64,000 bases of DNA from Streptomyces sp. NBC_01498. GTDB taxonomy: Bacteria; Actinomycetota; Actinomycetes; Streptomycetales; Streptomycetaceae. The translations under genes and the position numbers were made by a program. The stretch lies in the NCBI RefSeq assembly GCF_036327775.1, contig NZ_CP109598.1:2480001-2544000 (forward strand), written 5' to 3'. Shown here in pieces: positions 21,000 to 51,183 of this stretch. Under the pieces are notes generated by a model. The model worked only from the letters and a program-made list of their open reading frames with translations. It was not told where the DNA came from and did not search any database. Position 1 is the first letter of the stretch. Each line of letters begins with the position of its first letter.

Positions 21000-21011
21000 C
21001 TACGCGCGTAG
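21000..21011. promoter_or_regulatory. nucleoside-regulon palindrome, site 1 (PNP)
   Basis: CTACGCGCGTAG, perfect 12-bp palindrome preceded by AT (ATCTACGCGCGTAG). Ends 12 nt before the PNP -10 (TACGCT, 21024-21029), thus covering the -35 region. Confidence 0.85.
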
Positions 21012-21023
21012 GGCCTGAACGGT

Positions 21024-21029
21024 TACGCT
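21024..21029 (+). promoter_or_regulatory. -10 hexamer for leaderless PNP gene
   Basis: TACGCT, then CATCCGC, then GTG at 21037. Confidence 0.55.
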
Positions 21030-21036
21030 CATCCGC

Positions 21037-21867
21037 GTGAACGCATCTGTTATCCCGGCCACGGCCGACGGATCCGCCGACCCCCACGCCGCCGCCTCCG
21101 CCGCCGCGGTGCGCCTGCGCGAGCTCACCGGCGCCGAGACCCACGACGTGGCCCTGGTGATGGGCTCCGGCTGGGCACCCGCCGTCGCCGCGCTGGGAGC
21201 ACCCGAGGCCGAGTTCCCGGTGACCGAACTGCCGGGCTTTCCCCCGCCGGTCGTCGCCGGCCACGGCGGGACGATCCGCTCCTACGCGATCGCCGACAAG
21301 CGCGCGCTGGTCTTCCTGGGCCGTACGCACTACTACGAGGGCCGCGGCGTCGCGGCGGTCGCGCACGGCGTCCGTACGGCCGTCGCCTCCGGCTGCAAGA
21401 CCATCGTGCTGACGAACGGCTGCGGCGGGCTGCGCGAGGGCATGCGGCCTGGCCAGCCGGTGCTGATCAGCGACCACATCAACCTGACGGCGGCCTCGCC
21501 GATCGTCGGCCCCAACTTCGTGGACCTCACCGACCTGTACTCGCCCCGGCTGCGGGCGCTGTGCAAAGAGGTGGACCCGGGTCTGGAGGAGGGCGTGTAC
21601 GTCCAGTTCCCCGGCCCGCACTACGAGACGCCCGCCGAGATCAACATGGTCCGGGTGCTCGGCGGCGACCTGGTCGGCATGTCGACCGTGCTGGAGGCCA
21701 TCGCGGCACGGGAGGCGGGGGCCGAGGTCCTGGGCATCTCGCTGGTCACGAACCTGGCGGCGGGCCTGTCGGGCGAGCCGCTGAACCACGAGGAAGTGCT
21801 CCAGGCGGGGCGGGACTCGGCGACGCAGATGGGCGCGCTGCTCGCGCGGGTGCTGGAACGCATCTGA
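21037..21867 (+). CDS. punA: purine nucleoside phosphorylase
   Basis: Trimeric-type PNP that phosphorolyses (deoxy)inosine and guanosine to base and (deoxy)ribose-1-phosphate. 276 residues. Phosphate-site [12 protein letters not shown], the purine-site [25 protein letters not shown] and the ribose contact [14 protein letters not shown], and [17 protein letters not shown] are all present. GTG start at 21037 is leaderless and lies under a promoter with the shared CTACGCGCGTAG palindrome. Neighbour phosphohexomutase follows after a 300-nt repeat region. Mycobacterial order (lpdA, PNP, pmmB) is the same. Confidence 0.95.
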
Positions 21868-21960
21868 GGGATGCGGGGGCGGGACGACCGGCCGGGACGG
21901 CCGGGCGGGCGTACCCTCACGGGCCACAGACCGCCACCGACGCCCGCGCCACCGGCGACC

Positions 21961-22030
21961 GAGCACCGAGCACCGAGCACCGAGCACCGAGCACCGAGCA
22001 CCGAGCACCGAGCACCGAGCACCGAGCACC
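21961..22030. repeat. heptanucleotide tandem repeat, 10 copies
   Basis: GAGCACC repeated ten times without interruption, followed by three more copies spaced by AGACGCT, AAACGCT and AAACGT up to about 22073. Lies between PNP and the mutase gene (gap 21868-22169), which otherwise has no gene. The perfect core suggests an active slipped-strand locus. Confidence 0.9.
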
Positions 22031-22169
22031 AGACGCTGAGCACCAAACGCTGAGCACCAAACGTGAGCACCGACGTACGGCAGACACAGGCGCAGACGCA
22101 GAACCGGTCCGACCCGGGTGACCCACCGCGCGGCGCAGCCGACCCCGGGACTCAGGAAGGGAATCCACA

Positions 22170-23819
22170 GTGCAGCAGGACCTCATCGCGCGCGCCGAGG
22201 CGTGGCTGGCCGAGGACCCGGACGGGGACACGCGGGACGAGCTGCGGAAGCTCCTCGACTCCGGTGACCCGGACGCGCTGGCCGAACGGTTCGCCGGCAC
22301 GCTCCAGTTCGGCACGGCCGGGCTCCGGGGCGAACTGGGCGCCGGGCCGATGCGGATGAACCGCCCGGTGGTCATCCGCGCCGCCGCCGGGCTCGCCGCG
22401 TACCTCAGGTCCACGGGCCAGGGCGACGGACTCGTCGTCGTCGGCTACGACGCCCGCCACAAGTCCGCCGACTTCGCGCGCGACACGGCGGCCGTCATGA
22501 CCGGGGCGGGGCTGCGCGCCGCTGTCCTGCCGCGTCCGCTGCCGACCCCCGTACTGGCCTTCGCCATACGGCACTTGGGCGCCGTGGCCGGGGTGGAGGT
22601 CACCGCCAGCCACAACCCGCCGCGTGACAACGGCTACAAGGTCTATCTCGGCGACGGCTCCCAGATCGTGTCGCCCGTGGACGCGTCCATCGCGGCGGAG
22701 ATCGACGCGGTCGGCCCGCTGGCGACGGTGCCGCGCCCGGAGGACGGCTGGGAGGTCCTCGGCGACGAGGTGCTGACGGCCTATCTGGAGCGCGCGCTGA
22801 CCGTCCTGAGCCCCGGCTCGCCCCGTACCGCCCGTGTCGTCCACACGGCGCTGCACGGCGTCGGTACGGAGACCCTGAACGCCGCCTTCGCGCGGGCCGG
22901 TTTCCCCGCGCCCGTGGCGGTGGCCGAACAGGCCGCGCCCGACCCGGACTTCCCCACCGTCGCGTTCCCGAACCCGGAGGAGCCGGGCGCGATGGACCTG
23001 GCGTTCGCCGCGGCCCGGCGCGCCGCCCCGGACATCGTCATCGCCAACGACCCGGACGCGGACCGCTGCGCGGTGGCCGTACCGGACGCGGAGGCGGCGA
23101 GCGGCTGGCGGATGCTGCGCGGCGACGAGGTGGGCGCGCTGCTGGCCGCGCACCTGGTGAGCAAGGGCGCGACGGGCGTGTTCGCCGAGTCGATCGTGTC
23201 GTCGTCGCTGCTCGGGCGGATCGCGGAGGCGGCGGGCGTCGGGTACGAGGAGACGCTCACCGGCTTCAAGTGGATCGCCCGCGTGGAGGGTCTGCGGTAC
23301 GGGTACGAGGAGGCGCTCGGCTACTGCGTCGACCCCGGCGGCGTACGCGACAAGGACGGCATCACGGCGGCGCTGCTCGTCGCGGAACTGGCGTCCGCGC
23401 TGAAGGAGAAGGGCCGGGGCCTGACGGACCTGCTGGACGATCTGGCGCTGGCGCACGGCCTGCACGCCACGGACCAGCTGTCGGTGCGGGTACGGGACCT
23501 GTCGCTGATCGCACGGGCCATGGACCGGCTGCGCGACGAGCCGCCGACGGAGCTGGCCGGTCTGACGGTGGTCTCGGCGGAGGACCTCTCGGCGGGCGCG
23601 GGCGGGCTCCCGCCGACGGACGGGCTGCGCTACCACCTGGAGGGCGCGTACCGGGCCCGGGTGATCGTCCGCCCGAGCGGTACGGAACCGAAGCTGAAGT
23701 GCTACCTGGAGGCGGTGATCCCGGTCACGGACGCCTCCGGCCTGCCGGCGGCCCGCGCACGGGGCGCGGAGCTGCTGTCGGCCCTGAAGCGGGACCTGTC
23801 GGAGGCGGCGGGCATCTGA
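22170..23819 (+). CDS. phosphohexomutase family (phosphomannomutase / possible phosphopentomutase)
   Basis: 549 residues, four-domain alpha-D-phosphohexomutase. Phosphoserine loop TASHNPPRDNGYK, metal loop NDPDADRC, sugar loop with GVGYEETLTGFKWI, and phosphate-binding RPSGTEPKLKCY near the C-terminus. Annotated as ManB/PmmB in relatives, but its place between PNP and DeoC, and the absence of a DeoB gene here, suggest that it converts (deoxy)ribose-1-phosphate to the 5-phosphate. GTG at 22170 with GGAAGG 10 nt upstream. No copy of the palindrome in its own upstream region, so it may rely on read-through from PNP. Confidence 0.9.
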   Translation: MQQDLIARAEAWLAEDPDGDTRDELRKLLDSGDPDALAERFAGTLQFGTAGLRGELGAGPMRMNRPVVIRAAAGLAAYLRSTGQGDGLVVVGYDARHKSADFARDTAAVMTGAGLRAAVLPRPLPTPVLAFAIRHLGAVAGVEVTASHNPPRDNGYKVYLGDGSQIVSPVDASIAAEIDAVGPLATVPRPEDGWEVLGDEVLTAYLERALTVLSPGSPRTARVVHTALHGVGTETLNAAFARAGFPAPVAVAEQAAPDPDFPTVAFPNPEEPGAMDLAFAAARRAAPDIVIANDPDADRCAVAVPDAEAASGWRMLRGDEVGALLAAHLVSKGATGVFAESIVSSSLLGRIAEAAGVGYEETLTGFKWIARVEGLRYGYEEALGYCVDPGGVRDKDGITAALLVAELASALKEKGRGLTDLLDDLALAHGLHATDQLSVRVRDLSLIARAMDRLRDEPPTELAGLTVVSAEDLSAGAGGLPPTDGLRYHLEGAYRARVIVRPSGTEPKLKCYLEAVIPVTDASGLPAARARGAELLSALKRDLSEAAGI

Positions 23820-25654: not shown

Positions 25655-25948
25655 GCTGTCGATTCTGCCGTACGCCGCGGACATACCGGCCTCGGCTCCG
25701 TCGCCGCACCGCCCCGGCACCGGCCCGACAGCGCCCCGGCACCGCTCCCGTAACGCCCGCGCACCACCCAGCACCGCTCCCCCACCGTCGTCCTCTCATC
25801 GCTCCCGCGCCGCCCCCGCAGCACCCCCACCGACCTCTTCATCGCCCCCCGCGCCGTCCTCTCACCGCCTCCGCGCCGCCCTCTCCCCCGTGTGACGTAG
25901 CTCCACGTCACAGCGGCTCCCCCGTAACCCCACCCCCTGTACATGCTG

Positions 25949-25960
25949 CTACGCGCGTAG
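25949..25960. promoter_or_regulatory. nucleoside-regulon palindrome, site 2 (deoC)
   Basis: CTACGCGCGTAG, perfect, followed by AT. It ends one base before the deoC -10 (TATGCT, 25962-25967), so it fills the promoter spacer. Confidence 0.88.
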
Positions 25961-25961
25961 A

Positions 25962-25967
25962 TATGCT
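25962..25967 (+). promoter_or_regulatory. -10 hexamer for leaderless deoC
   Basis: TATGCT, then CATGTG, then GTG at 25974 (a second GTG at 25971). Confidence 0.55.
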
Positions 25968-25973
25968 CATGTG

Positions 25974-26957
25974 GTGACCATGCCCACGACTGCACCCTCG
26001 CCCACAGGCTTCGCCGTGGGCGGTGCCCCCCTCGCCGACGTGACCGCGTCCGACAGTTCGCTGCGCCGGTTCCTCCACGGCCTGCCCGGCGTCGACGCCG
26101 TCGGCCTGGAGGCACGCGCCGCCTCGCTCGGTACGCGTTCGATCAAGACGACGGCCAAGGCGTACGCCATCGACCTGGCCATCTCGATGATCGACCTGAC
26201 GACCCTCGAAGGCGCCGACACCCCGGGCAAGGTCCGGTCGCTCGCCGCCAAGGCCCTGCACCCGGACCCGACCGACCGCACCGTCCCGACGACGGCCGCG
26301 CTCTGCGTCTACCCGGACATGGTGGAGACCGCCGTCGCCGCGCTCGCCGGGAGCGACGTGAAGGTCGCCTCCGTCGCGACCGCCTTCCCGGCGGGCCGCG
26401 CCGCCCTCGCGGTGAAGCTCGCCGACGTACGGGACGCGGTCGCCGCCGGTGCCGACGAGGTCGACATGGTGATCGACCGGGGCGCGTTCCTCGGGGGTCA
26501 CTACCTGAAGGTCTACGAGGAGATCGCCGCCGTGAAGGCGGAGTGCGGGACCGCCCGGCTCAAAGTGATCTTCGAGAACGGTGAGCTGTCCACGTACGAC
26601 AACATCCGCCGCGCCTCCTGGCTCGGCATGGCCGCCGGCGCGGACTTCATCAAGACGTCGACCGGCAAGGTCGCCGTCAACGCCACCCCCGCCAACACAC
26701 TGCTGATGCTGGAGGCCGTACGCGACTTCCGTGCCCTCACCGGTGTCCAGGTCGGCGTGAAGCCCGCCGGAGGCATCCGGACCAGCAAGGACGCGATCAA
26801 GTTCCTGGTGCTGGTCAACGAGACCGTCGGCGAGGACTGGCTGGACAACCACTGGTTCCGCTTCGGCGCGTCCAGCCTTCTCAACGACCTGCTGATGCAG
26901 CGCCAGAAGCTCTCCACCGGCCGCTACTCCGGCCCCGACTACGTCACAGTGGACTGA
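25974..26957 (+). CDS. deoC: deoxyribose-phosphate aldolase
   Basis: Class I aldolase splitting 2-deoxyribose-5-phosphate into glyceraldehyde-3-phosphate and acetaldehyde. 327 residues, longer than E. coli DeoC by an N-terminal and C-terminal extension typical of the large DeoC subtype. Active-site elements: ALCVYP, VDMVIDRGAFL (Asp), the Schiff-base Lys in FIKTSTGKV and the proton-relay Lys in GVKPAGGIR. Three possible starts (GTG 25971, GTG 25974, ATG 25980); the spacing from the -10 favours 25974. Followed after 6 nt by an aldehyde dehydrogenase that can take the acetaldehyde. Repressed, by inference, through the palindrome over its promoter. Confidence 0.96.
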   Translation: MTMPTTAPSPTGFAVGGAPLADVTASDSSLRRFLHGLPGVDAVGLEARAASLGTRSIKTTAKAYAIDLAISMIDLTTLEGADTPGKVRSLAAKALHPDPTDRTVPTTAALCVYPDMVETAVAALAGSDVKVASVATAFPAGRAALAVKLADVRDAVAAGADEVDMVIDRGAFLGGHYLKVYEEIAAVKAECGTARLKVIFENGELSTYDNIRRASWLGMAAGADFIKTSTGKVAVNATPANTLLMLEAVRDFRALTGVQVGVKPAGGIRTSKDAIKFLVLVNETVGEDWLDNHWFRFGASSLLNDLLMQRQKLSTGRYSGPDYVTVD

Positions 26958-26963
26958 TACACG

Positions 26964-28415
26964 ATGGCTTTCGAATACGCACCGGCCCCCGAGTCGCGCT
27001 CGGTCGTCGACATCGCGCCGAGCTACGGCCTGTTCATCGACGGCGAGTTCACCGACGCCGCCGACGGCAAGGTCTTCAAGACGGTCTCCCCCGCGACCGA
27101 GGAGGTCCTCTCCGAGGTCGCCCGCGCGGGCGCCGAGGACGTCGACCGGGCCGTGAAGGCGGCCCGCAGGGCGTTCGTGAAGTGGTCGGCCCTGCCGGGC
27201 GCCGAGCGCGCCAAGTACCTCTTCCGGATCGCCCGGATCATCCAGGAGCGTTCGCGCGAACTGGCCGTCCTGGAGACCCTCGACAACGGCAAGCCGATCC
27301 GCGAGACCCGCGACGCCGACCTCCCGCTGGTCGCCGCGCACTTCTTCTACTACGCGGGCTGGGCCGACAAGCTCGACCACGCCGGTTTCGGCCGGAGGAC
27401 GGCGGACGGACACGGCGGGCCGCGCCCGCTGGGCGTCGCCGGCCAGGTCATCCCGTGGAACTTCCCGCTGCTGATGCTCGCGTGGAAGATCGCCCCGGCG
27501 CTCGCCACCGGCAACACCGTGGTCCTCAAGCCCGCCGAGACCACCCCGCTCAGCGCGCTGTTCTTCGCCGACATCTGCCGCCAGGCCGGTCTGCCGCGCG
27601 GAGTCGTCAACATCCTTCCCGGGTACGGCGACGCGGGCGCCGCCCTCGTCGCGCACGAGGACGTCAACAAGGTCGCCTTCACCGGTTCGACCGCCGTCGG
27701 CAAGGCCATCGCCCGGCAGGTCGCGGGCACGGACAAGAAGGTCACGCTCGAACTCGGCGGCAAAGGCGCCAACATCGTCTTCGACGACGCCCCGATCGAC
27801 CAGGCCGTCGAGGGCATCGTCACCGGCATCTTCTTCAACCAGGGCCAGGTCTGCTGCGCCGGATCGCGGCTGCTGGTCCAGGAGTCCGTCCAGGACGAAC
27901 TGCTGGACTCGCTGAAGCGGCGGCTGTCCACGCTGCGGGTCGGCGACCCGCTGGACAAGAACACGGACATGGGCGCGATCAACTCCGCCGAGCAGCTCTC
28001 CCGGATCCGTACGCTGGCCGACGCGGGCGAGGCGGAGGGCGCCGACCGCTGGTCGCCCGCGTGCGAACTCCCGTCGTCCGGCTACTGGTTCGCACCGACC
28101 CTCTTCACCAACGTCACGCAGGCGCACACCGTCGCGCGCGACGAGATCTTCGGCCCGGTGCTCTCCGTCCTGACGTTCCGCACACCGGACGAGGCGGTCG
28201 CCAAGGCCAACAACACGCAGTACGGCCTCTCCGCCGGTATCTGGACGGAGAAGGGCTCCCGCATCCTCGCCGTGGCGAGCAAGCTCCGCGCGGGTGTGGT
28301 GTGGGCCAACACGTTCAACAAGTTCGACCCGACCTCGCCCTTCGGCGGCTACAAGGAGTCGGGCTACGGCCGCGAGGGCGGTCGCCACGGCCTGGAGGCG
28401 TATCTCGATGTCTGA
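26964..28415 (+). CDS. aldehyde dehydrogenase
   Basis: 483 residues, NAD(P)-dependent ALDH superfamily. Cofactor loop GSTAVGKAIA, general-base Glu in LELGGKGAN, and the nucleophilic Cys in NQGQVCCAGSR are intact. The gene lies 6 nt after deoC and overlaps the next gene by 8 nt, forming one operon, so acetaldehyde from deoxyribose breakdown is the likely substrate (inference). A 25-residue stretch between residues 360 and 380 is shorter than in most ALDHs (after MGAINSAEQL), which may alter the surface but not the catalytic centre. Confidence 0.93.
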   Translation: MAFEYAPAPESRSVVDIAPSYGLFIDGEFTDAADGKVFKTVSPATEEVLSEVARAGAEDVDRAVKAARRAFVKWSALPGAERAKYLFRIARIIQERSRELAVLETLDNGKPIRETRDADLPLVAAHFFYYAGWADKLDHAGFGRRTADGHGGPRPLGVAGQVIPWNFPLLMLAWKIAPALATGNTVVLKPAETTPLSALFFADICRQAGLPRGVVNILPGYGDAGAALVAHEDVNKVAFTGSTAVGKAIARQVAGTDKKVTLELGGKGANIVFDDAPIDQAVEGIVTGIFFNQGQVCCAGSRLLVQESVQDELLDSLKRRLSTLRVGDPLDKNTDMGAINSAEQLSRIRTLADAGEAEGADRWSPACELPSSGYWFAPTLFTNVTQAHTVARDEIFGPVLSVLTFRTPDEAVAKANNTQYGLSAGIWTEKGSRILAVASKLRAGVVWANTFNKFDPTSPFGGYKESGYGREGGRHGLEAYLDV

Positions 28416-37582: not shown

Positions 37583-38728
37583 TCAGCCCAGAGAATCGCT
37601 GGTCGTGGCGGTCTGCGTGAACAGCCATTCGGATTTCAGCTCGGCATATCCGGGCTTGATCACGTCGTTGATCATGGCCAGTCGTTCATCGAAAGGAATG
37701 AATGCTGATTTCATCGCATTGACGGAGAACCACTGCATGTCGTCGAGCGTGTAGTCGAACGCCTCGGTCAGCAGCTCGAATTCACGGCTCATGCTCGTGC
37801 CGCTCATCAGCCGGTTGTCGGTGTTGACCGTCGCACGGAAGTGGAGCCGGCGCAGCAGGCCGATGGGGTGTTCGGCGATCGACGCGGCGGCGCCCGTCTG
37901 GAGGTTGGAGCTGGGGCACAGCTCCAGCGGGATCCGCTTGTCGCGTACGTAGGAGGCGAGCCGTCCCAGCGTGACCGAGCCGTCCTCGGCGACCTCGATG
38001 TCGTCGATGATGCGTACGCCGTGGCCCAGCCGGTCGGCGCCGCACCACTGGAGCGCCTGCCAGATCGAGGGCAGGCCGAACGCCTCGCCCGCGTGGATGG
38101 TGAAGTGGTTGTTCTCGCGCTTCAGGAACTCGAAGGCGTCGAGGTGGCGGGTGGGCGGGAAGCCCGCCTCCGCGCCCGCGATGTCGAAGCCGACGACGCC
38201 CGAGTCCCGGTAGCGGTTGGCCAGTTCGGCGATCTCCAGCGCGCGGGCGGCGTGCCGCATCGCGGTCAGCAGGGCGCCGACGCGGATCCGGTGGCCGGCC
38301 GCGCGGGCCCGCCGCTCGCCCTCCTTGAAGCCCTCGTTGACGGCCTCCACGACCTCTTCGAGGGTGAGCCCGGCCTCCAGGTGCTGCTCGGGGGCGTAGC
38401 GCACCTCCGCGTACACGACACCGTCCCGCGCCAGGTCCTCGGCGCACTCGGCGGCGACCCGGAACAGCGCGTCGCGGGTCTGCATGACGGCGCAGGTGTG
38501 CGCGAAGGTCTCCAGATACCGCTCCAGCGAGCCGGAGTCGGCCGCCTCGCGGAACCAGAGGCCGAGCTTGTCGGGATCGGTCTCGGGAAGGCCGTCGTAG
38601 CCGTTCTCACGGGCGAGTTCGACGATCGTGGCGGGGCGCAGGCCCCCGTCGAGATGGTCGTGCAGAAGCACCTTGGGGGCGCGGCGGATCTGGTCGGCCG
38701 TGGGCGGCCGGCGGGTCTGGCTCGTCAT
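37583..38728 (-). CDS. add: adenosine deaminase
   Basis: Converts (deoxy)adenosine to (deoxy)inosine, feeding PNP. 381 residues. Zinc and catalytic motifs: [11 protein letters not shown] (two His), [13 protein letters not shown] (His, Glu), RLGHGVRI, and [12 protein letters not shown] (Asp pair). ATG at 38728 is preceded by TAGGCT (complement of 38735-38740) 6 nt upstream; the mRNA should be leaderless. The shared CTACGCGCGTAG palindrome is 4 nt further up, so this gene belongs to the nucleoside regulon proposed here. Confidence 0.96.
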
Positions 38729-38740: not shown

Positions 38741-38744
38741 ACGC

Positions 38745-38756
38745 CTACGCGCGTAG
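38745..38756. promoter_or_regulatory. nucleoside-regulon palindrome, site 3 (add)
   Basis: CTACGCGCGTAG, perfect, followed by ATC. It begins 4 bp upstream of the add -10. It also lies 76 bp before the divergent hydrolase gene and could affect both. Confidence 0.85.
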
Positions 38757-38831
38757 ATCACTCGTCGCCGATACCCAACGGTGACCACGGGTACGGCTGA
38801 CGTACACCTCACCTTCTGAGACTGTTCTGTT

Positions 38832-39693: not shown

Positions 39694-40704
39694 CTACGGC
39701 AGCAGGCGGCCCCGGCGGGAGAGCAGGAAGCGTTTGAAGGCCGCCACCGGCGGCGTGTCGGGGTGGCCGTCGAGCCAGGCGACACCCACCTCGCGGACGG
39801 CGCGGGGCGCCGTGACGGTCAGTTCCACGACGCCGGGGCGGGCCACCGCCGGGGGCGGCAGCAGCGCGACGCCGAGGCCCGCCGCGACCAGGCCGCGCAG
39901 GGTCTCGGCCTCCTCGCCCTCGAAGGCGACCCGGGGGCGGAACCCGGCCGCCTCGCACAGGTCGTCGGTGATGCGGCGCAGCCCGTAACCCGGTTCGAGG
40001 GTCACGAACGTCTCGTCCGCCGCCTCGGCGAGCCGGACCCGGCGGCGGGTGGCCAGCCGGTGGTCGTCGGGGACGACGAGGAGCAGCCGCTGTTCGTCGA
40101 GGCGGCGGGCGACGAGGTCGGGGGCCTCGGGGACCGGGGAGGTGAGGCAGAGGTCCAGGTCGCCCGCGCGCAGGCGTTCCAGCATCGCCTCGCCGTAGTT
40201 CTGGACGAGTTGGAAGCGGATCCGGGGGTGGTCGGCGCGGAAGGCGCGGATCAGTTCGGGGACGGTCTCGGAGCCCATCGTGTGCAGGAAGCCGAAGGCG
40301 ACCTTGCCCGAGGCGGGGTCGGCGTCGGCGCGTACGGACTCCGCCGCCCGTTCCACCTCCGCGAGGGCGCCTTCCACGGAGGTGAGGAAGGCACGGCCGG
40401 CGGGGGTGAGCGAGACGGTTCGGCCGGTGCGCGCGAACAGGGCGACGCCCAGGTCCTGTTCGAGCCGGACCATGGCGCGGGAGAGCGTGGACTGCGGGAC
40501 GTTCATGTCCTGCGCGGCGCGGGTGACGTGTTCGTGGCGGGCGACGCCCGCGAACTGGGCGAGGCGCGGGGCCAGCAGCGCGGACCAGGACGCGGGGTCG
40601 AGGTCCGCCGTGGGTGGCGGGGCGGGCGGCCGGCTCGACGGTGCGGTGTCGTGTACGTAACCGCTCGATGACGGCCGGGGGTCGGACCTGCGTTGATGCG
40701 CCAT
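39694..40704 (-). CDS. LysR-family transcriptional regulator
   Basis: 336 residues. N-terminal helix-turn-helix about 50-95 (FAGVARHEHVTRAAQDMNVPQSTLSRAMVRLEQDLGVALFARTGRTVSLTPAG) preceded by a Pro/Ser-rich extension, and a periplasmic-binding-like effector domain. Divergent from an MFS transporter gene 62 nt away, the classic LysR pair, so it likely controls that gene and itself. ATG at 40704 follows CATAAT (complement of 40712-40717) by 7 nt: leaderless. The effector cannot be inferred. Confidence 0.92.
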   Translation of the reverse strand: MAHQRRSDPRPSSSGYVHDTAPSSRPPAPPPTADLDPASWSALLAPRLAQFAGVARHEHVTRAAQDMNVPQSTLSRAMVRLEQDLGVALFARTGRTVSLTPAGRAFLTSVEGALAEVERAAESVRADADPASGKVAFGFLHTMGSETVPELIRAFRADHPRIRFQLVQNYGEAMLERLRAGDLDLCLTSPVPEAPDLVARRLDEQRLLLVVPDDHRLATRRRVRLAEAADETFVTLEPGYGLRRITDDLCEAAGFRPRVAFEGEEAETLRGLVAAGLGVALLPPPAVARPGVVELTVTAPRAVREVGVAWLDGHPDTPPVAAFKRFLLSRRGRLLP

Positions 40705-40711
40705 GGGAACG

Positions 40712-40760
40712 ATTATGGCGATTCCATGCATTGGACGCATGAGAGAAGGCTCCGTACGTT
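40712..40760. promoter_or_regulatory. divergent leaderless promoters with shared palindrome
   Basis: CATAAT (complement of 40712-40717) serves the LysR gene, and TACGTT (40755-40760) serves the MFS gene; each is 6-7 nt from its start codon. Between them TCCATGCATTGGA (40723-40735) is a palindrome that covers the upstream parts of both promoters, and TTGGAC (40731-40736) is an acceptable -35 for the MFS promoter, spaced 18 bp. Confidence 0.6.
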
Positions 40761-43831: not shown

Positions 43832-45109
43832 TCAGGCGATCCGGTCGAGCACGATCGGGGACGCGGTGAACGCGGTCCCGGCCGGGGCGATGTCGTACGC
43901 CGACGTCAGCGTCTCCCGCGCGTAGTCGAACCTCGACGGGGTGTCGGTGTGCAGCGTGAGCAGCGGCTGGCCCGCCGTCACGGTGTCGCCCGGCTTGGCG
44001 TGCAGTTCGACGCCCGCGCCCGCCTGCACCGCGTCCTCCTTGCGGGCCCGGCCCGCGCCGAGCCGCCAGGCGGCGACGCCGATGTCGTACGCGTCGAGCC
44101 GGGTCAGCACCCCGGAGGTCGGCGCCGTGATCACCTCGTGCTCCCGGGCCTCGGGCAGCGCCGCGTCCGGGTCGCCGCCCTGGGCCGCGATCATCCGGCG
44201 CCAGACGTCCATGGCGGAGCCGTCGGCCAGCGCACCGGCGGGGTCGGCGTCCGGCAGACCGGCGGCGTCCAGCATCTCGCGGGCCAGGGCCAGCGTCAGC
44301 GCGACCACGTCCGCCGGGCCGCCGCCCGCCAGGACCTCGACCGACTCCCGTACCTCCAGGGCGTTGCCCGCGGTGAGACCGAGCGGGGTGGCCATCTCGG
44401 TGAGCAGCGCCACGGTCCGTACGCCGTGGTCGGTGCCGAGGCCGACCATCGTCGCGGCGAGTTCACGCGCGTCCTCGACGGTCTTCATGAAGGCGCCGGA
44501 GCCGACCTTGACGTCCAGGACGAGCGAGCCGGTGCCCTCGGCGATCTTCTTGGACATGATCGAGGAGGCGATGAGCGGGATCGCCTCGACGGTGCCGGTG
44601 ACGTCGCGCAGCGCGTACAGCTTCTTGTCGGCCGGGGCCAGACCGTCCCCGGCGGCGCAGATCACGGCGCCGGCGGAGCCGAGCACGTCCAGCATCTCGG
44701 CGTTGGAGATCCGGGCCCGCCAGCCGGGGATGGACTCCAGCTTGTCGAGGGTGCCGCCGGTGTGGCCGAGGCCGCGCCCGCTGAGCTGCGGCACGGCCGC
44801 GCCGCACGCGGCGACCAGCGGCGCGAGCGGCAGTGTGATCTTGTCGCCGACGCCGCCCGTGGAGTGCTTGTCGGCGGTGGGGCGGGACAGCGAGGAGAAG
44901 TCCATGCGTTCGCCGGAGTTGATCATGGCGGCGGTCCAGCGGGCGATCTCCGCCCGGTTCATGCCGTTGAGCAGGATCGCCATGGCGAGGGCGGACATCT
45001 GCTCGTCGGCGACGTCACCGCGCGTGTAGGCGTCGATGACCCAGTCGATCTGCTCGGGGCTCAGCTCGCCGCGGTCCCGCTTGGTGCGGATGACGGAGAT
45101 GACGTCCAT
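43832..45109 (-). CDS. deoA: thymidine phosphorylase
   Basis: Cleaves thymidine or deoxyuridine with phosphate to base and deoxyribose-1-phosphate. 425 residues. Signature KHSTGGVGDK (phosphate site), RGLGHTGGTLDKLESIPG (pyrimidine nucleoside phosphorylase signature), IASSIMSKKIAEG and the C-terminal barrel-sandwich domain. AAGGAA 5 nt before the ATG. Last gene of the operon; 90 nt separate it from cdd, containing three copies of a 15-bp repeat (GGGGCCGGCGCGAAC, about 45146-45190). Confidence 0.96.
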   Translation of the reverse strand: MDVISVIRTKRDRGELSPEQIDWVIDAYTRGDVADEQMSALAMAILLNGMNRAEIARWTAAMINSGERMDFSSLSRPTADKHSTGGVGDKITLPLAPLVAACGAAVPQLSGRGLGHTGGTLDKLESIPGWRARISNAEMLDVLGSAGAVICAAGDGLAPADKKLYALRDVTGTVEAIPLIASSIMSKKIAEGTGSLVLDVKVGSGAFMKTVEDARELAATMVGLGTDHGVRTVALLTEMATPLGLTAGNALEVRESVEVLAGGGPADVVALTLALAREMLDAAGLPDADPAGALADGSAMDVWRRMIAAQGGDPDAALPEAREHEVITAPTSGVLTRLDAYDIGVAAWRLGAGRARKEDAVQAGAGVELHAKPGDTVTAGQPLLTLHTDTPSRFDYARETLTSAYDIAPAGTAFTASPIVLDRIA

Positions 45110-45199: not shown

Positions 45200-45607
45200 T
45201 TACGCGAGGTGCTGCGGGCCGAACGCCTGCGGAAGCATGTCGGCGAGCGTGACGATGCCCGCCGGGGTGTCCAGCAGCAGGCCGGGCCCGCCGCACTCGT
45301 ACAGCAGCTGACGGCACCGGCCGCACGGCACGAGCGGCGCGCCCGCGCCGTCGACGCACGTGAAGTGGGTGAGCCGGCCGCCGCCCGTACTGTGCAGCGC
45401 GGAGACCAGCCCGCACTCGGCGCACAGGCCGAGGCCGTACGAGGCGTTCTCCACGTTGCAGCCGGTGACGGTGCGGCCGTCGTCCACCAGGGCGGCGGCG
45501 CCGACCGGGAAGCCCGAGTACGGGGCGTACGCGCGGGACATGGCGTCCCGGGCCGCCGCGCGCAGGGCCTCCCAGTCGACACCGGCGTCGGTGGCGGCGC
45601 CCGTCAT
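45200..45607 (-). CDS. cdd: cytidine deaminase
   Basis: 135 residues, tetrameric type. Zinc ligands and catalytic Glu in CAECG and PCGRCRQLL; substrate loop NVENASYGLGLC and YAPYSGFPVGAA. Converts cytidine/deoxycytidine to uridine forms for DeoA. Its ATG overlaps the stop of the permease gene (ATGA), so translation is coupled. Confidence 0.96.
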   Translation of the reverse strand: MTGAATDAGVDWEALRAAARDAMSRAYAPYSGFPVGAAALVDDGRTVTGCNVENASYGLGLCAECGLVSALHSTGGGRLTHFTCVDGAGAPLVPCGRCRQLLYECGGPGLLLDTPAGIVTLADMLPQAFGPQHLA

Positions 45608-46869
45608 GTGCCCTGGCCTCTGCGGTACGTCATGCCGTTGGCCTTCGGCATGCGCAGCCGCTGTGCGGACAGGGCGAGGACGAGCAGGGTCGTCACGTAC
45701 GGGGCGGCGTCCACGAACTGGCTCGGGACCTGGTCCGTCAGCCCGTACCAGAGGAACAGCACCGCGGCGACGGCCGCCGAGATCCCGGCGGAGACGTACT
45801 TGCGCTTGTAGAGCTGCCAGCCCACGACGAGCACCAGCAGGATCGCCAGCAGGAGCAGCATGGCGTGCACGTTCTCCGCGCCGCCGCGCAGCTTGAGGCT
45901 GTCGGTGAAGCCGAACAGCCCGGCGCCCAGCGCCATGCCGCCCGGCATCCAGTTGCCGAAGATCATCGCGGCGAGACCGATGTAACCGCGCCCGCCGGTC
46001 TGGTTCTCCTGGTAGATGCCGGTGGCGACGATGGCCAGGAAGGCACCGGCGAGGCCGGCGAGGCCGCCGGAGACGGTGACGGCGATGTACTTGTACTTGT
46101 AGACGTTGACGCCCAGCGTCTCGGCGGCGATCGGGTTCTCGCCGCAGGAGCGCAGCCGCAGCCCGAAGGACGTACGCCACAGGATCCACCAGGTGCCGGG
46201 GATCAGCAGCAGGGCGACGATCGTCAGCAGCGACAGGCCGGTCACCAGTCCGCCGAGGACCCCGGCGATGTCGGAGATCAGGAACCAGTGTTTCTGCTGG
46301 AGATCCGCCAGCCCGTCGGCGAGTCCGGGGATGGTGATCTCGGTGATCGAGTCGATGCGTGGCGACTGCTTGGAGGAGCCGCCGGGCTCGGTGGCGAAGG
46401 TGAAGTTGGAGAGGTAGCGGGTCACGCCCACGGCGAGGATGTTGATGGCCACACCGGAGACGATGTGGTTGACGCCGAAGGTGACGGTGATGATCGCGTG
46501 CAGCAGTCCGCCGAGCGCGCCGCCGAGGATGCCGAAGAGGACACCGACCCAGGGGCCCCACTGGAATCCGGCCCAGGCGCCGAACCAGGTGCCGAGGACC
46601 ATCATCCCTTCGAGGCCGATGTTGATGACGCCCGCGCGCTCCGCCCACAGGCCGCCGAGTCCGGCGAGGCCGATGGGGACGGCGAGTTCGAGCGCGCCGG
46701 CCACCTGGCCGACGGAGGTGATGTCGTCGGCGCCGCTGATCAGCCGCACCAGGGAGATCAGGGCCAGTCCGCCCGCGATGATCAGCAGGACGACGGGCAG
46801 GGTCAGCTTGCGCCGGCCCCCGCCCTTCTTGGGAGCCGCGCTCGTCGCGGTGACGGTGCTGGTACTCAC
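45604..46869 (-). CDS. nucleoside ABC transporter permease (second)
   Basis: 421 residues, about ten membrane helices, BPD_transp_2 type (GLGGLWAERAGVINIGLEGMMVLGTWFGAW at the cytoplasmic loop with the conserved NIGLEGMM). Pairs with the preceding permease as in RnsD/YufQ-type nucleoside importers. The N-terminus has a Lys-rich segment before the first helix. ATGA overlap with cdd at its end and with the first permease at its start. Confidence 0.93.
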   Translation of the reverse strand: MSTSTVTATSAAPKKGGGRRKLTLPVVLLIIAGGLALISLVRLISGADDITSVGQVAGALELAVPIGLAGLGGLWAERAGVINIGLEGMMVLGTWFGAWAGFQWGPWVGVLFGILGGALGGLLHAIITVTFGVNHIVSGVAINILAVGVTRYLSNFTFATEPGGSSKQSPRIDSITEITIPGLADGLADLQQKHWFLISDIAGVLGGLVTGLSLLTIVALLLIPGTWWILWRTSFGLRLRSCGENPIAAETLGVNVYKYKYIAVTVSGGLAGLAGAFLAIVATGIYQENQTGGRGYIGLAAMIFGNWMPGGMALGAGLFGFTDSLKLRGGAENVHAMLLLLAILLVLVVGWQLYKRKYVSAGISAAVAAVLFLWYGLTDQVPSQFVDAAPYVTTLLVLALSAQRLRMPKANGMTYRRGQGT

Positions 46870-48098
46870 AGGGCAGCCCCCTTGTCGTTCTTGGACACGG
46901 AATCGGAGCCGGGGCCGTCGGAACCAGGACCGGGGCCGTCGGAACCCGAGCCGGTGCCGGGGCCGTCGGAGCCGGGACCGGGTGGCCCGGAGTCGGCCTC
47001 GGTGCGGATCGCGCCGCCCGCCGCGAGTTCCTCGCCGACCTTCTGCTGCTGGCGGCGGAGGCCGTAACGGCGGACCAGTTCGTAGCTGACCACGACGGAG
47101 ATCACGATCAGGCCCTGCATGATCGTCGCGATTTCCTTCTCGTACCCGTGCTGGTCGAGAGAGGCGGACGACTTGTCGAGGAAGGCGATCAGCAGGGCGC
47201 TGAAGGCTATGCCCACCGGGTGGTTGCGGCCCAGCAGCGCGATGGTGATGCCGGTGAAGCCGATACCGGTGGGGAAGTCGAGGCTGTACGTGTGGCTGTC
47301 GCCGAGCAGTGTCGGCATACCGACCAGGCCCGCGACCGCGCCCGAGATCAGCATCGAGGTGAGGACCATCTTCTTGGCGTCGACACCGGACGCCTGCGCG
47401 GCGCTCTCGCTGGCGCCCGTGGCGCGCAGGTCGAAGCCGAAGCGGGTGCGGCCGAGGACGAACCAGTAGATGACACCGCAGAGCGCGGCGACGAACGTGA
47501 AGCCGTAGATCTCACCGGCCTCGGCGCCCATGGACAGGCCGGGGAACCAGCCGGACTCCGGGATCTCGCCCGTCGTCAGGTTGTTGGACCCGGCGGGCTG
47601 CTCGCCGAAGTTCTTCGGCAGGATCAGCCAGGCGACGAGGCTGGTGGCGATGGAGTTGAGCATGATCGTGGAGACGACCTCGCTCACCCCGCGCGTGGTC
47701 TTGAGGATGCCCGCGATACCGGACCAGAAGGCGCCGACGAGCATCGCCGTGACGACGATGAGGGCGATCTGGAGCGGGCCGGGCAGGCTGACGCTGGCAC
47801 CGACGAGCGCGGCCATCATCGCGGCGAGCCGGTACTGGCCGTCGACCCCGATGTTGAACAGGTTCATCCGGAAGCCGACGGCGACGGCGAGCGCGGCGAG
47901 ATAGTACGTACCGGCCTGGTTGACGATCAGGACCTGGACGTCGACGTAGCTCGCCGACTGGAACATGATCCGGTACGGCTCCCACGGGTTGGTGCCCGAG
48001 ACGAGCAGCACCACCGTGGTGAGGGCGATGGCGACGACCAGTGCGAGTACCGGGCCGGCCAGGCCCAGGATCAGCCGGTCCTTGTCGAACTTCTTCAT
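46866..48098 (-). CDS. nucleoside ABC transporter permease (first)
   Basis: 410 residues, RnsC/YufP-type BPD_transp_2 permease (NIGVDGQYRLAAMMAALVGASVSLPG in the conserved loop). The final 50 residues are a repetitive hydrophilic tail (GPGSDGPG units, repeats visible in DNA at 46900-46985) after the last helix; a species-specific ornament, probably cytoplasmic. ATGA overlaps at both ends. Confidence 0.93.
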   Translation of the reverse strand: MKKFDKDRLILGLAGPVLALVVAIALTTVVLLVSGTNPWEPYRIMFQSASYVDVQVLIVNQAGTYYLAALAVAVGFRMNLFNIGVDGQYRLAAMMAALVGASVSLPGPLQIALIVVTAMLVGAFWSGIAGILKTTRGVSEVVSTIMLNSIATSLVAWLILPKNFGEQPAGSNNLTTGEIPESGWFPGLSMGAEAGEIYGFTFVAALCGVIYWFVLGRTRFGFDLRATGASESAAQASGVDAKKMVLTSMLISGAVAGLVGMPTLLGDSHTYSLDFPTGIGFTGITIALLGRNHPVGIAFSALLIAFLDKSSASLDQHGYEKEIATIMQGLIVISVVVSYELVRRYGLRRQQQKVGEELAAGGAIRTEADSGPPGPGSDGPGTGSGSDGPGPGSDGPGSDSVSKNDKGAAL

Positions 48099-49654
48099 CG
48101 GGCCTCGTCCTCCGGGGCTGCCAGGTGTCCGGTGGCGGCGCCGGTCATGGCGGTGCCCAGTTCCTCCGGGGTGATGGTCGCGGGGTCCGCGTCGGCGACG
48201 AGCCGGCCGCGGTACATCACGCGCAGGGTGTCGGAGAGACCGATCAGCTCGTCCAGGTCGGCGGAGATCAGCAGCACCGCGAGTCCGTCCCGGCGGGCGG
48301 CCTTGATCTGGTCCCAGATCTGGGCCTGCGCGCCGACGTCGACACCGCGTGTCGGGTGCGCGGCGATCAGCAGCTTCGGGGCGTGGCTCATCTCGCGGCC
48401 GACGATCAGCTTCTGCTGGTTTCCGCCGGACAGGGAGGCGGCCGTGACGTCGATGCCGGGCGTGCGGACGTCGTACTCGACCACGATGCGCTTGGTGTCG
48501 GTGCGCGCCGCCTTGGGGTCGAGGAGTCCGCGGCGGCTGTTGGGCCGCTCGGTGACGTGGCCGAGGATGCGGTTCTCCCAGAGCGGCGCGTCCAGCAGGA
48601 GTCCGTGCCGGTGCCGGTCCTCGGGGATGTAGCCGATGCCGCTCTCCCGGCGGGTGCGGGTGGGCGCGTGCGAGATGTCGGCGCCGTCGAGCGCTATCAC
48701 GCCGCCGTCCGGGTCGCGCAGGCCCATCAGGGTCTCGATCAGCTCGGTCTGGCCGTTGCCCTCGACGCCCGCGATGCCGAGGATCTCGCCGCGGTGGATG
48801 GTGAGGCCGATCTCGGCGAGCACCTCGCGGACGACACCGTCGGGGTCGGTCGCGGTGAGCCGCAGGTCCGTGACGGTGAGCACGGGGACGTCGGTGACGG
48901 TCGACTCGCGGGTCTCGGGCGAGGGGAGTTCGCTGCCGACCATCAGCTCGGCGAGCTGCTTGGTCGTGGTGTGCGCGGGGTCGGCCGTGCCCACCGTCGT
49001 ACCGCGCCGGATGACGGTGATGTCGTCCGCGACGGACAGCACCTCGCCCAGCTTGTGCGAGATGAAGATGACGGTGAGGCCCTCGGCCTTGAGCTCGCGC
49101 AGGTTGTCGAAGAGCGCGTCGACCTCCTGGGGGACGAGAACCGCGGTGGGCTCGTCCAGGATGAGTATCCGGGCACCCCGGTAGAGGACCTTGAGGATCT
49201 CCACGCGCTGGCGGTCGGCGACCCCGAGGTCCTCGACGAGGGCGTCGGGGCGGACCCCGAGGCCGTACGCGTCGGAGATCTCGGTGATCTTCCGGCGGGC
49301 GCCCTGGCCGATGCCGTGCAGCTTCTCGGCGCCGAGGACGACGTTCTCCAGGACGGTGAGGTTGTCGGCGAGCATGAAGTGCTGGTGCACCATGCCGATG
49401 CCGCGCGCGATGGCGTCGGCGGGGCTGGTGAAGGTGACCGGCCGGCCGTCGACGGTGATGGTTCCCTCGTCGGGCTTCTGCATGCCGTAGAGGATCTTCA
49501 TCAGGGTCGACTTGCCGGCGCCGTTCTCACCGACGAGGGCGTGCACGGTGCCCTTGCGGACGGTGAGGGCGATGTCGTGGTTGGCGACGACGCCGGGGAA
49601 CCGCTTGGTGATGCCGTGCAGTTCGACGGCGGGGGGACTGCTGGACGCGTTGAT
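48095..49654 (-). CDS. nucleoside ABC transporter ATPase (double ABC), with ATC start
   Basis: 519 residues with two ABC domains, as in RbsA/YufO-like importers. First domain: Walker A GENGAGKST, Walker B ILILDEPTAV. Second: degenerate Walker A GVEGNGQTEL and signature LSGGNQQK, Walker B KLLIAAHPTRGVD. No ATG, GTG or TTG is in frame between the upstream stop (TAG near 49713) and a GTG in front of Walker A that would delete the first strands. Conserved residues (INASSSPPAVELHGITKRFPGVVANHDIALTV) begin at an ATC codon at 49654, with AAGGAG 8 nt upstream. A CTG start near 49620 or a sequencing error are alternatives. Stop overlaps the next permease. Confidence 0.88.
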   Translation of the reverse strand: MNASSSPPAVELHGITKRFPGVVANHDIALTVRKGTVHALVGENGAGKSTLMKILYGMQKPDEGTITVDGRPVTFTSPADAIARGIGMVHQHFMLADNLTVLENVVLGAEKLHGIGQGARRKITEISDAYGLGVRPDALVEDLGVADRQRVEILKVLYRGARILILDEPTAVLVPQEVDALFDNLRELKAEGLTVIFISHKLGEVLSVADDITVIRRGTTVGTADPAHTTTKQLAELMVGSELPSPETRESTVTDVPVLTVTDLRLTATDPDGVVREVLAEIGLTIHRGEILGIAGVEGNGQTELIETLMGLRDPDGGVIALDGADISHAPTRTRRESGIGYIPEDRHRHGLLLDAPLWENRILGHVTERPNSRRGLLDPKAARTDTKRIVVEYDVRTPGIDVTAASLSGGNQQKLIVGREMSHAPKLLIAAHPTRGVDVGAQAQIWDQIKAARRDGLAVLLISADLDELIGLSDTLRVMYRGRLVADADPATITPEELGTAMTGAATGHLAAPEDEAR

Positions 49655-49708
49655 GACGCACTCTCCTTGGCCAGGAGCGGGGGCGGGGCGGAGGGCAGGG
49701 CGGGGGTG

Positions 49709-49714
49709 AAGCTA
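49709..49714 (-). promoter_or_regulatory. putative -10 of the ABC operon
   Basis: TAGCTT on the minus strand, about 54 nt before the ATC start, with the palindrome 17 bp upstream at the -35 position. Confidence 0.35.
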
Positions 49715-49731
49715 TCGCGCCGGAGAGGCAT

Positions 49732-49743
49732 CTACACGCGTAG
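49732..49743. promoter_or_regulatory. nucleoside-regulon palindrome, site 4 (ABC operon)
   Basis: CTACACGCGTAG: one mismatch to CTACGCGCGTAG, with AT on the left as at the other sites (ATCTACACGCGTAG). Lies 78 bp upstream of the ABC ATPase start. Confidence 0.75.
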
Positions 49744-49954
49744 CGCTGCCGAATCGTGAGCGTAGATCTTGCGGAGAAGGGGGCCGTTTCCGGTGACCGG
49801 CCCGGATCTCGTGACCGATCGGGACCGGAATCCGGCGACCGATCGGGCCGGTCGCCGTGACCCCTGCGGTCGCCGTGACCGACCGGGTCCCGGTCCTCGC
49901 GACCGCGACCACGACCGGGGCCGTGACCACGACCGGGGCCGGTTCTCGTGACCG
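49744..49954. repeat. short direct repeats between bmp and ABC genes
   Basis: GACCGATCGGG, GTCGCCGTGACC and ACGACCGGGGCCGTGACC each occur twice. No gene in the 405-nt gap 49655-50059. Confidence 0.5.
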
Positions 49955-49995
49955 GGGCCCGGAGCGGCGGCGGCTCGCGCCGTCGCTCCGGGCCC
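49955..49995 (-). terminator. terminator after bmp
   Basis: GGGCCCGGAGCG (49955-49966) pairs with CGCTCCGGGCCC (49984-49995), extended inside by CGGCG/CGCCG. It lies 65-105 nt past the bmp stop and before the ABC promoter. Confidence 0.75.
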
Positions 49996-50059
49996 GCGGT
50001 TCGGTGACGTCGTCCGTGTCTCTCGTACGGCGTGGCCGCCGGCCGCGGTCGTTACGTGA

Positions 50060-51109
50060 CTACGGAGCGGTCTTGACGGTGATGGAACCGTCGATGATGC
50101 CCTGCTTGGCCTTGTCCACGGCCGCGGTGACCTCGGCCATCTTGGTGTAGGCCGGGTTGGAGTCGGTGAGGCCGACGCCGTCCTTGTCGAGGCCGTAGCG
50201 GATCTCGCCGTTCTGCGGGCTGCCGTCCTCGACCGACTTGATCAGGTTGAACACCGCGTCGGCGATGTCCTTGGTGACCGAGGTGAGGATGCTGTCCTTG
50301 TACTGCGCGAGACCGGCCTGCTTGTACTGGTCGGAGTCGACGCCGATGTTCCACTTGCCCGCGGCGGAGACCGCCTCGATGGAACCGGAGCCGGCCAGAC
50401 CGGCCGCCGCGTAGATCACGTCGGCCTTCTTGTCGAGCTGGCCCTGGGCGGCGGCCTTGCCGAGGTCGGGCTTGGAGAAGCCGTCGAAGTTCGGCGGCTG
50501 GGTCAGGTACTGGGTGAGCACCTTCACCGAGGGGTCGGTGTCCTTGACGCCCTGCGCGTAGCCCGCCTCGAACTTCTTGATCAGCGGGGTCTCGACGCCG
50601 CCGATGAAGCCGACGGTCTTGGACTTGCTGGCCTTGGCCGCCGCGACACCGGCGAGGTACGAGCCCTGCTCCTCGTTGAAGACCATGTTGGCGATGTTCG
50701 CGCCGGTCACGGAGGCGTCGTCGATGATGCCGAAGGTGGTCTTCGGGAACTTCGGGGCGACCTTCTTGATGGCCGGCGCGTAGGCGAAGCCCACGCCGAT
50801 CACCGGGTTGTTGCCCGCGCGGGCCAGCTCGGTCAGACGCTGGATCTTGTCCGCGTCGGCCTCACCGTCGGAGGGCTCGGCGTCGTGGCCCTTGACCTTG
50901 AGTTCCTTCTCGGCCTTGGCCAGACCCGCGTACGCGGCGTCGTTGAACGACTGGTCGCCGCGACCACCGATGTCGTAGGCGAGGGCGACGCTTTTCTCCT
51001 TGGAGTCGGACGCGGCGTCCGAGGAGGAGGTGTTGCCACACGCGGTGGCGGTCAGCGCGAGCGCCGCGGACGCGACGCCCACGGTTGCGATCCTGGTGAT
51101 CCGGCGCAA
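50060..51109 (-). CDS. BMP-family nucleoside-binding lipoprotein
   Basis: 349 residues. Lipoprotein signal with lipobox LTATAC near residue 24; mature part is a BMP/PnrA/RnsB-type substrate-binding fold (LAYDIGGRGDQSFNDAAYAGL; NPVIGVGFAYAPAI; FIGGVETPLIKKFEAGYAQG; DVIYAAAGLAGSG; NIGVDSDQY). Receptor of the ABC importer. TTG start at 51109 is supported by GAAGGAG 8 nt upstream and by the signal peptide. It has its own promoter and terminator, so receptor and transporter can be made in different amounts. Confidence 0.95.
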   Translation of the reverse strand: MRRITRIATVGVASAALALTATACGNTSSSDAASDSKEKSVALAYDIGGRGDQSFNDAAYAGLAKAEKELKVKGHDAEPSDGEADADKIQRLTELARAGNNPVIGVGFAYAPAIKKVAPKFPKTTFGIIDDASVTGANIANMVFNEEQGSYLAGVAAAKASKSKTVGFIGGVETPLIKKFEAGYAQGVKDTDPSVKVLTQYLTQPPNFDGFSKPDLGKAAAQGQLDKKADVIYAAAGLAGSGSIEAVSAAGKWNIGVDSDQYKQAGLAQYKDSILTSVTKDIADAVFNLIKSVEDGSPQNGEIRYGLDKDGVGLTDSNPAYTKMAEVTAAVDKAKQGIIDGSITVKTAP

Positions 51110-51167
51110 GGGAGGGCTCCTTCAAGGCGACCAAAAAGCGCCTCTGCTCGGCGCTGGTTTCGCGCCG

Positions 51168-51183
51168 ATCGTAACGCGCGTAG
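51168..51183. promoter_or_regulatory. nucleoside-regulon palindrome, site 5 (bmp) and -10
   Basis: TAACGCGCGTAG (51172-51183, followed by ATG) matches 10 of 12 bases of the palindrome, with a perfect CGCGTAGAT half. TACGAT (complement of 51168-51173) is a plausible -10, so the site overlaps the core promoter of bmp, about 60 nt before the TTG start. Confidence 0.7.

Follow-up and report, generated by a model that had tools for sequence, protein, structure and literature searches.

The subject of this report is a palindrome found at the promoters of nucleoside-salvage genes in Streptomyces sp. NBC_01498, together with the LacI-family protein that may bind it. The window, meaning the whole stretch of DNA analyzed here, comprises 64 kb (bases 2480001-2544000 of a 7.27-Mb single-contig genome). 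It contains genes for purine-nucleoside phosphorylase (PNP), deoxyribose-phosphate aldolase (deoC) and adenosine deaminase (add), an ATP-binding cassette (ABC) transporter operon with the cytidine deaminase gene cdd and the phosphorylase gene deoA, and bmp (Table 1). The gene identities given in a preliminary description of this DNA hold: PNP, deoC, add and deoA pass NCBIfam cut-offs, and bmp encodes a PnrA-type binding protein according to Pfam.

Promoter palindromes of the window

The 12-mer CTACGCGCGTAG is present in perfect form at 21000-21011, 25949-25960 and 38745-38756, with one mismatch as CTACACGCGTAG at 49732-49743, and with two as TAACGCGCGTAG at 51172-51183. These five sites agree letter for letter with those of the preliminary description, and its chance figure of 0.007 perfect 12-mers per 64 kb follows from the base frequencies used there. 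In the window, which has 72% G+C, the 12-mer at up to two mismatches is not significant alone: seven matches are seen, two of them (33477 and 56725) not among the claimed sites, vs 4.86 expected, and 18 of 100 shuffles reach seven. The full 16-mer has no perfect copy in the window, differing by 2, 2, 2 and 3 mismatches at the PNP, deoC, add and ABC promoters and by 4 at bmp. At up to three mismatches, it is nevertheless significant, with four matches vs 0.06 expected and none of 100 shuffles attaining this number.

As had been claimed, the sites are placed at core promoters in that, judged by eye, they lie on or beside plausible -10 and -35 elements, among them the -10-like sequences GGTTACGCT (PNP), TAGATA (deoC), GTTAGGCT (add) and GTTACGAT (bmp). 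The distance from site center to start codon is about 15-32 bp for deoC, add and PNP, here and in related loci, and is larger for the bmp and ABC sites. Sites of the ABC type were observed at the matching place in most of ten other Streptomyces loci, and related sites of the GTCTACGCGCGTTAAT type precede the bmp genes of other Streptomyces. The bmp sites look like a compromise in which one half of the palindrome yields to the -10 element. Just upstream of the ABC operator, at approximately 49760-49768, there is a second half-site, ATCTACGC (operon strand), which looks like a decayed tandem site. Based on the 6-base gap that separates them, deoC and the aldehyde dehydrogenase gene are probably co-transcribed.

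Table 1. Positions of putative operators, of genes in the window, and of the candidate regulator gene (G000, this genome; C1, its contig).
Feature	Position	Strand	Basis or remark
Operator ATCTACGCGCGTAGGG, PNP promoter	20998..21013	+	exact core; before PNP in 10/26 typed loci, own included
Operator TGCTACGCGCGTAGAT, deoC promoter	25947..25962	+	exact core; same place before deoC in 13/26 typed loci
Operator ATCTACGCGCGTAGGC (add strand), add promoter	38743..38758	-	exact core
Operator CGCTACGCGTGTAGAT (operon strand), before ABC-cdd-deoA genes	49730..49745	-	window sequence
Asymmetric operator ATCTACGCGCGTTACG (bmp strand)	51170..51185	-	right half yields to TTACGAT, -10-like
Purine-nucleoside phosphorylase (PNP)	21037..21867	+	NCBIfam TIGR01698 above cut-off
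Deoxyribose-phosphate aldolase deoC	25971..26957	+	NCBIfam TIGR00126 above cut-off
Aldehyde dehydrogenase	26964..28415	+	6-base gap after deoC
Adenosine deaminase add	37583..38728	-	NCBIfam NF006847 above cut-off, Pfam A_deaminase
Thymidine/pyrimidine phosphorylase deoA	43832..45109	-	NCBIfam NF004490 above cut-off
Cytidine deaminase cdd	45200..45604	-	translation; frame by eye, start not fixed
ABC permease 2 of transporter adjoining bmp	45604..46869	-	resembles BMP-type permeases, below equivalog cut-off
ABC permease 1	46866..48098	-	matched in related loci
ABC ATPase	48095..49546	-	true start may be further upstream
Bmp/PnrA-type substrate-binding lipoprotein	50060..51109	-	Pfam PF02608
Candidate LacI, 340 aa	G000:C1:3934325-3935347	-	next gene downstream of GlnR-family gene (PF21695), 1.4 Mb from window

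Conservation and genome-wide distribution of the sites

The 14-mer CTACGCGCGTAGAT is present in 99 of 101 Streptomyces genomes, with three matches in total for the reversed pattern, and in 47 of 61 genomes of the family Streptomycetaceae, representing 12 of 17 genera. In a draw of 197 genomes across the class it was found in 19, namely all 16 Streptomyces of the draw and three others. These 16 Streptomyces genomes have the 14-mer at 39 places. All 26 of these with a typed locus are upstream of a salvage gene (13 deoC, 10 PNP, 3 add), and the distance from site center to start is nearly fixed at 15-16 bp for deoC, 32-33 bp for PNP and 23 bp for add, apart from one PNP locus with 121 bp. For add, we compared 30 family genomes chosen to include 13 without the 14-mer. 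Among the 28 with an add homologue, the 12-mer core is located within 120 bp of add in exact form in 22 and with one mismatch in two more (24/28). In G246 and G257 a 14-mer precedes add by about 120 and 240 bp, and G256 and G255 have no 14-mer near add. The matches in G105 and G320, as well as two sites in G088, were judged to be due to chance or unclear. The deoA and add loci of ten genomes from other families contain no palindrome at the cut-offs used, and by eye no consistent linked regulator. The conservation across Streptomycetaceae and the identity of the downstream genes give good support to an operator common to nucleoside-salvage genes.

Genome-wide, the exact 12-mer has four copies, three of which are inside the window. 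The 16-mer at up to three mismatches occurs at 26 places vs 4 for the reversed pattern, and ten of the 26 precede a nucleic-acid gene or lie at its start. These targets are PNP, deoC, add, the ABC operon, purS, the NCS2 permease gene (Xan_ur_permease), a 5'-nucleotidase, a GmrSD_C-type protein, a carbon-nitrogen hydrolase, downstream of which a dihydropyrimidinase is encoded on the same strand, and an ExeM/NucH-type nuclease (named after its best NCBIfam match, which does not reach the cut-off). One more of the 26 places, that of the fourth exact 12-mer (2456295-2456310; core at 2456297), stands 38 bp before the gene of a 170-aa protein that has a signal peptide (signal peptides were called by eye throughout) and matches no Pfam family; this small protein may be a further regulon member, or the site may be a chance match. 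Another site, CTATGCGCGTAG (L014, at 3491796), is followed after about 70 bp by the gene of a PhoX-type alkaline phosphatase, a possible nucleotide-scavenging target.

We carried out the same scan in three other Streptomyces genomes (G018, G057 and G133) and read part of the loci; at least one representative of each kind of gene was annotated by Pfam or NCBIfam, and the others by eye. Shared by all four genomes are the site at the NCS2 permease gene, the site in the lsr2-purS intergenic region, the nuclease site TTCTACGCGCGTCAAT, which is identical in the four (gene read in our genome and G018), and the site of the carbon-nitrogen hydrolase form (gene read in our genome, start by eye in G018). 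Sites of an Endonuclease I gene and of a cyclic-nucleotide phosphodiesterase/nucleotidase gene are present in G018, G057 and G133, and an NCS1 permease site in G133; the pyrimidine catabolism and ExeM-type nuclease genes of G057 and G133 were assigned from the site sequence alone. A matrix of 26 sites, chosen by their genes, has an invariant C6 and G11, with the central C and G at 50 of 52 each when both strands are counted.

In the four genomes a site overlaps the first codons of the GmrSD_C-type nuclease gene, and in G057 and G133 those of the gene for a second adenosine deaminase. These sites may be genuine or due to the encoded protein, and the argument made here is independent of them. 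In the second adenosine deaminase (L152 in G057, L124 in G133) the palindrome keeps GTA or ATA codons, which are rare in Streptomyces, as if conservation acted on the DNA rather than on the protein. A good site, ATCTACGCGCGGAGAT or ATCTTCGCGCGTAGAC (L114 in G057, L121 in G133), was also observed between an SseB-like gene and a gene that by eye resembles one for an ABC permease.

Rather than being spread evenly over the genome or absent from orthologous promoters, the two outcomes named beforehand as speaking against a nucleoside-salvage regulon, the sites are linked to nucleoside genes and conserved. The earlier reading is supported in this respect, though incomplete: the regulon is genome-wide, nucleases, nucleotidases, permeases, pyrimidine catabolism and purSQL also appear to belong to it, and a specific LacI-family protein can be put forward as the regulator. 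The literature searched, with passages of PMC3224704, PMC4848846, PMC9739823, PMC3878966, PMC4365011, PMC5839063 and PMC4052901, gave no account of the operator or regulon, and an earlier prediction may exist in the supplement of PMC4052901 or in RegPrecise.

A LacI-family protein associated with the palindrome

Operators of LacI dimers are even palindromes centered on CG, and the halves of the present site, ATCTACGC and GCGTAGAT, fit this pattern. The exact 16-mer alone was scanned in a species collection of 84,980 genomes, from which genomes near that of the window may be left out. The scan gave 87 stretches, and none of the 80 listed by name is from Streptomyces. A LacI protein with the recognition helix AGTSxAVVSYV is encoded in 61 of the 87 stretches vs none of 220 control loci, which had been collected irrespective of LacI (1.17 Mb, with partial overlap). 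Among the 80 named stretches, the helix-bearing LacI is present in 51/64 from Enterobacterales, 4/5 from Actinomycetota, 3/5 from Pseudomonas and 0/6 others, and in 54 of these 58 the palindrome precedes it by 1.1-1.8 kb. In Rothia and Arthrobacter, a PfkB-type kinase gene and then the LacI gene follow the site, with a nucleoside hydrolase in the same locus in Rothia. In Enterobacterales and Pseudomonas, the loci read contain, in this order, the palindrome, an MFS transporter, LacI and a nucleoside hydrolase, some with an extra gene or an altered order; Pfam confirmed the nucleoside hydrolase beside LacI in all four Proteobacterial loci tested. The same exact 16-bp palindrome and helix are common to different phyla (L221-L307, mostly Enterobacterales, some Pseudomonas), perhaps by an old transfer.

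The helix homologues were also examined in the reverse direction. At up to two mismatches, ATCWACNCGNGTWGAT was found in the own-gene locus of 15 of 20 helix homologues vs none of 28 loci of other LacI genes of our genome, and at up to three mismatches in 19/20 vs 4/28, the three-mismatch match of L362 being 2 kb downstream of its gene. Two of the 20 homologue loci were 8 kb long; the others and the controls were about 4 kb. For 15/20 the Fisher p value is about 1e-8, and for the 11/16 that remain without the four homologues that had suggested the pattern it is about 6e-7; these values overstate the case because the homologues are related to each other. In a tree of 85 LacI proteins, the 60 that bear the helix are on one side of a branch with support 100/98, opposite 25 other LacI proteins of our genome.

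Within the helix group, the residue type is paired with the half-site. All seven proteins with a Pro-type helix (TSP) have CAAC/GTTG half-sites on both sides, and of 12 with non-Pro helices ten have CTAC/CTAT on both sides and two are mixed (one more, L362, being without a site). Part of the LacI recognition code may be readable from this pairing. The seven Pro-type proteins, however, constitute a single branch of the tree, so that the pairing of Pro with CAAC may go back to one change.

A search with the Arthrobacter protein gave 29 LacI matches in our genome, corresponding to 27 genes, and the helix was read in 28 (L333 was unaligned). A single LacI protein has the helix AGTSxAVVSYV, and it is the best match, with 198 bits vs 155 for the next; L334, with VSRATVSYV, fits a looser pattern and falls outside the helix group in the tree. 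The candidate exceeds the gathering cut-offs of PF00356 and PF13377, and so combines a LacI helix-turn-helix with a periplasmic-binding-protein-like sensor domain. An orthologue is present in 25 of 25 Streptomycetaceae genomes at 69-91% identity, with AGTSTAVVSYV[IV]N invariant in the 25, and 15 genomes from other families contain no match at the orthologue level, three of them having homologues at 42-46%. The S. coelicolor LacI gene SCO4158 sits downstream of glnR/sco4159 according to passages of PMC9739823. Based on this synteny with the GlnR-family gene, the candidate is very probably the counterpart of SCO4158. The same passages (PMC9739823) suggest that SCO4158 might regulate glnR, and no regulon or operator was found in the literature passages on SCO4158. 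An ArgR-box table in PMC5839063 lists a site upstream of SCO4158, so that, as far as this table goes, the candidate may be under arginine control.

One alternative is that the palindrome is the operator of the DeoR-family protein whose gene lies near PNP in the window (17381-18385, minus strand). E. coli DeoR controls its deo regulon, and this DeoR/GlpR-type protein, 2.7 kb from PNP, has a close match in all 30 family genomes searched. However, the conserved promoter of the DeoR gene carries a different element, the best palindrome match in the 30 loci having 6-9 mismatches in 16, and the protein scores 74 bits vs a cut-off of 244 for E. coli-type DeoR (NF007961). Moreover, the palindrome-only scan, in which DeoR genes were not searched for, points to LacI genes. 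We thus consider control by this protein very improbable. The promoter of the DeoR gene is, in itself, strikingly conserved in 30 Streptomycetaceae loci (L191-L220), with the pattern CAACTTC..GGTGCAAAC..CTGAAAGCAGACGGTC..GTTACTGTCAGTTTCGTG.

It is likewise hardly credible that a regulator of TetR, LysR, MarR or IclR type binds the palindrome and that the LacI association elsewhere is coincidental. TetR (16064-16873) and LysR (39694-40740) genes are in the window, and by eye MarR-like and IclR-like genes are near the NCS2 permease gene and near one site of our genome, but no gene of these four types recurred beside sites in the loci of other genomes that were read, and the association of 61/87 vs 0/220 concerns LacI. 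We rejected the TetR and LysR proteins, for which no recurring link to the sites was seen, as well as the MarR-like gene beside the NCS2 permease gene and the IclR-like gene beside 4697722, which are neighbors in this genome only. Autoregulation did not serve as a route to the regulator in Streptomyces, where one IclR-like gene stands alone by a site among the sites read.

Proposed control of nucleic-acid scavenging and known systems

Taken together, we propose that ATCTACGCGCGTAGAT is the operator of a LacI-family repressor, the counterpart of SCO4158, controlling nucleic-acid scavenging genes, a reading to which we assign a probability of roughly 0.88. In this model a LacI dimer would bind the 16-bp site overlapping the core promoter and exclude RNA polymerase, thus keeping the genes off; repression is what we infer from site position and protein family. 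The genes shut off would comprise those for signal-peptide nucleases and nucleotidases, the nucleoside ABC transporter, nucleobase permeases, add, PNP, deoC, deoA/cdd and pyrimidine catabolism, and also purSQL, and the regulon would serve to turn external nucleic acid into usable parts. The activity of LacI would be set by a nucleoside- or ribose-related molecule, or by a purine signal as in PurR. The nucleoside hydrolase and kinase genes that adjoin relatives of the candidate suggest, by analogy, a nucleoside or its sugar as the effector, and the purS site leaves room for a PurR-like purine signal. The candidate scores below the NCBIfam cut-off of the ribose repressor RbsR (187 bits vs 382, NF047341). 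In an alignment with an RbsR protein, it carries H at a position of the RLRLEGYR stretch that is R in RbsR, so that its ligand should not be deduced from RbsR.

A variant of this proposal differs in the signal only: the same LacI protein would be a PurR-like purine sensor with a corepressor, which, instead of being released by nucleosides, would repress the acquisition of purines and purSQL at times of purine abundance. The corepressors of E. coli PurR, itself a LacI protein, are guanine and hypoxanthine according to passages of PMC4052901. The presence of the lsr2-purS intergenic site in four of four genomes and of nucleobase permeases in the regulon is in line with such a sensor, but deoC, deoA, the dihydropyrimidinase, and the nucleoside hydrolase and kinase genes of the relatives are catabolic, and the candidate is below the PurR cut-off. 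In addition, the scans turned up a single pur promoter, that of purSQL, the others not having been examined one by one. We regard this variant as possible, with the balance tilted against it.

Several observations weigh against the proposed LacI operator as a whole. Outside Streptomyces, the class-wide draw gave four 14-mer matches vs six of the reversed pattern, as expected by chance, and 15 of the 26 places in our genome have no clear nucleic-acid tie, most of them lying within reading frames (330283, 1113684, 1832270, 2316344 and others). In Streptomyces, the lacI gene lies apart from the proposed targets and has no full palindrome: in our genome the best match has seven mismatches, and in 16 of 25 orthologues it is a half-site, CGCGTAGA, at a fixed place overlapping the -10-like TAGACT. 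For SCO4158, passages of PMC4365011 call the promoter constitutive and the gene ccpA. Across bacteria, 26 of the 87 palindrome stretches have no such LacI, some possibly being incomplete at their ends, and the LacI tests are not phylogenetically independent, given that most palindrome matches are from Enterobacterales and five homologue rows are near-identical members of one protein family (f19). Some homologues adjoin a sugar-type or NMT1-type ABC operon instead, and in G088 the gene of the helix protein has no palindrome nearby, both 14-mers of this genome lying 14-17 kb from it. Finally, purSQL alongside catabolic genes is odd for a purely catabolic repressor.

Streptomyces live surrounded by dead cells and lyse some of their own mycelium, and with this lifestyle the control of nucleic-acid recycling bears on development and on the timing of antibiotic production. 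No regulator of nucleic-acid recycling in Streptomyces was found in the literature searched, and our results offer one named protein, one operator and one list of targets. An orphan LacI gene beside that of the nitrogen regulator glnR gains a probable function, and the pairs of helix and operator across phyla may extend the LacI recognition code. We slightly favor the view that there is a cross-phylum LacI subfamily, with the helix AGTSxAVVSYV and the operator ATCTACNCGNGTAGAT, which serves single nucleoside operons in Proteobacteria and Micrococcaceae and has become a global regulator in Streptomycetaceae, where it would couple the digestion of external DNA and nucleotides, uptake, salvage and pyrimidine catabolism with purine synthesis at the purSQL step.

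Among known systems, UriR of Corynebacterium is similar in being a LacI-type regulator of nucleoside use, as described in passages of PMC4052901, and the relatives of the candidate adjoin nucleoside hydrolase, kinase and transporter genes. By contrast, the candidate reaches 124 bits vs the NCBIfam cut-off of 550 (NF051853), and UriR is called local in those passages (PMC4052901), whereas the targets of the candidate are genome-wide. PurR of Enterobacterales resembles the proposed system in having a global LacI regulon in which purine synthesis is linked to other nucleotide metabolism, according to passages of the same source (PMC4052901). The candidate differs from it in scoring 173 bits vs a cut-off of 501 (NF007979), and the Streptomyces regulon differs in containing nucleases, deoC and deoA. 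The operator and recognition helix of PurR are also different from those found here. With the control exerted by DeoR and CytR in E. coli, the system shares the target genes deoC, deoA, cdd and those of PNP-type enzymes. However, the candidate scores 168 bits vs a cut-off of 436 for CytR, and DeoR belongs to another protein family. The system reported here, a LacI regulon of which no description was found in the literature searched, is of a known kind and has a named candidate regulator.

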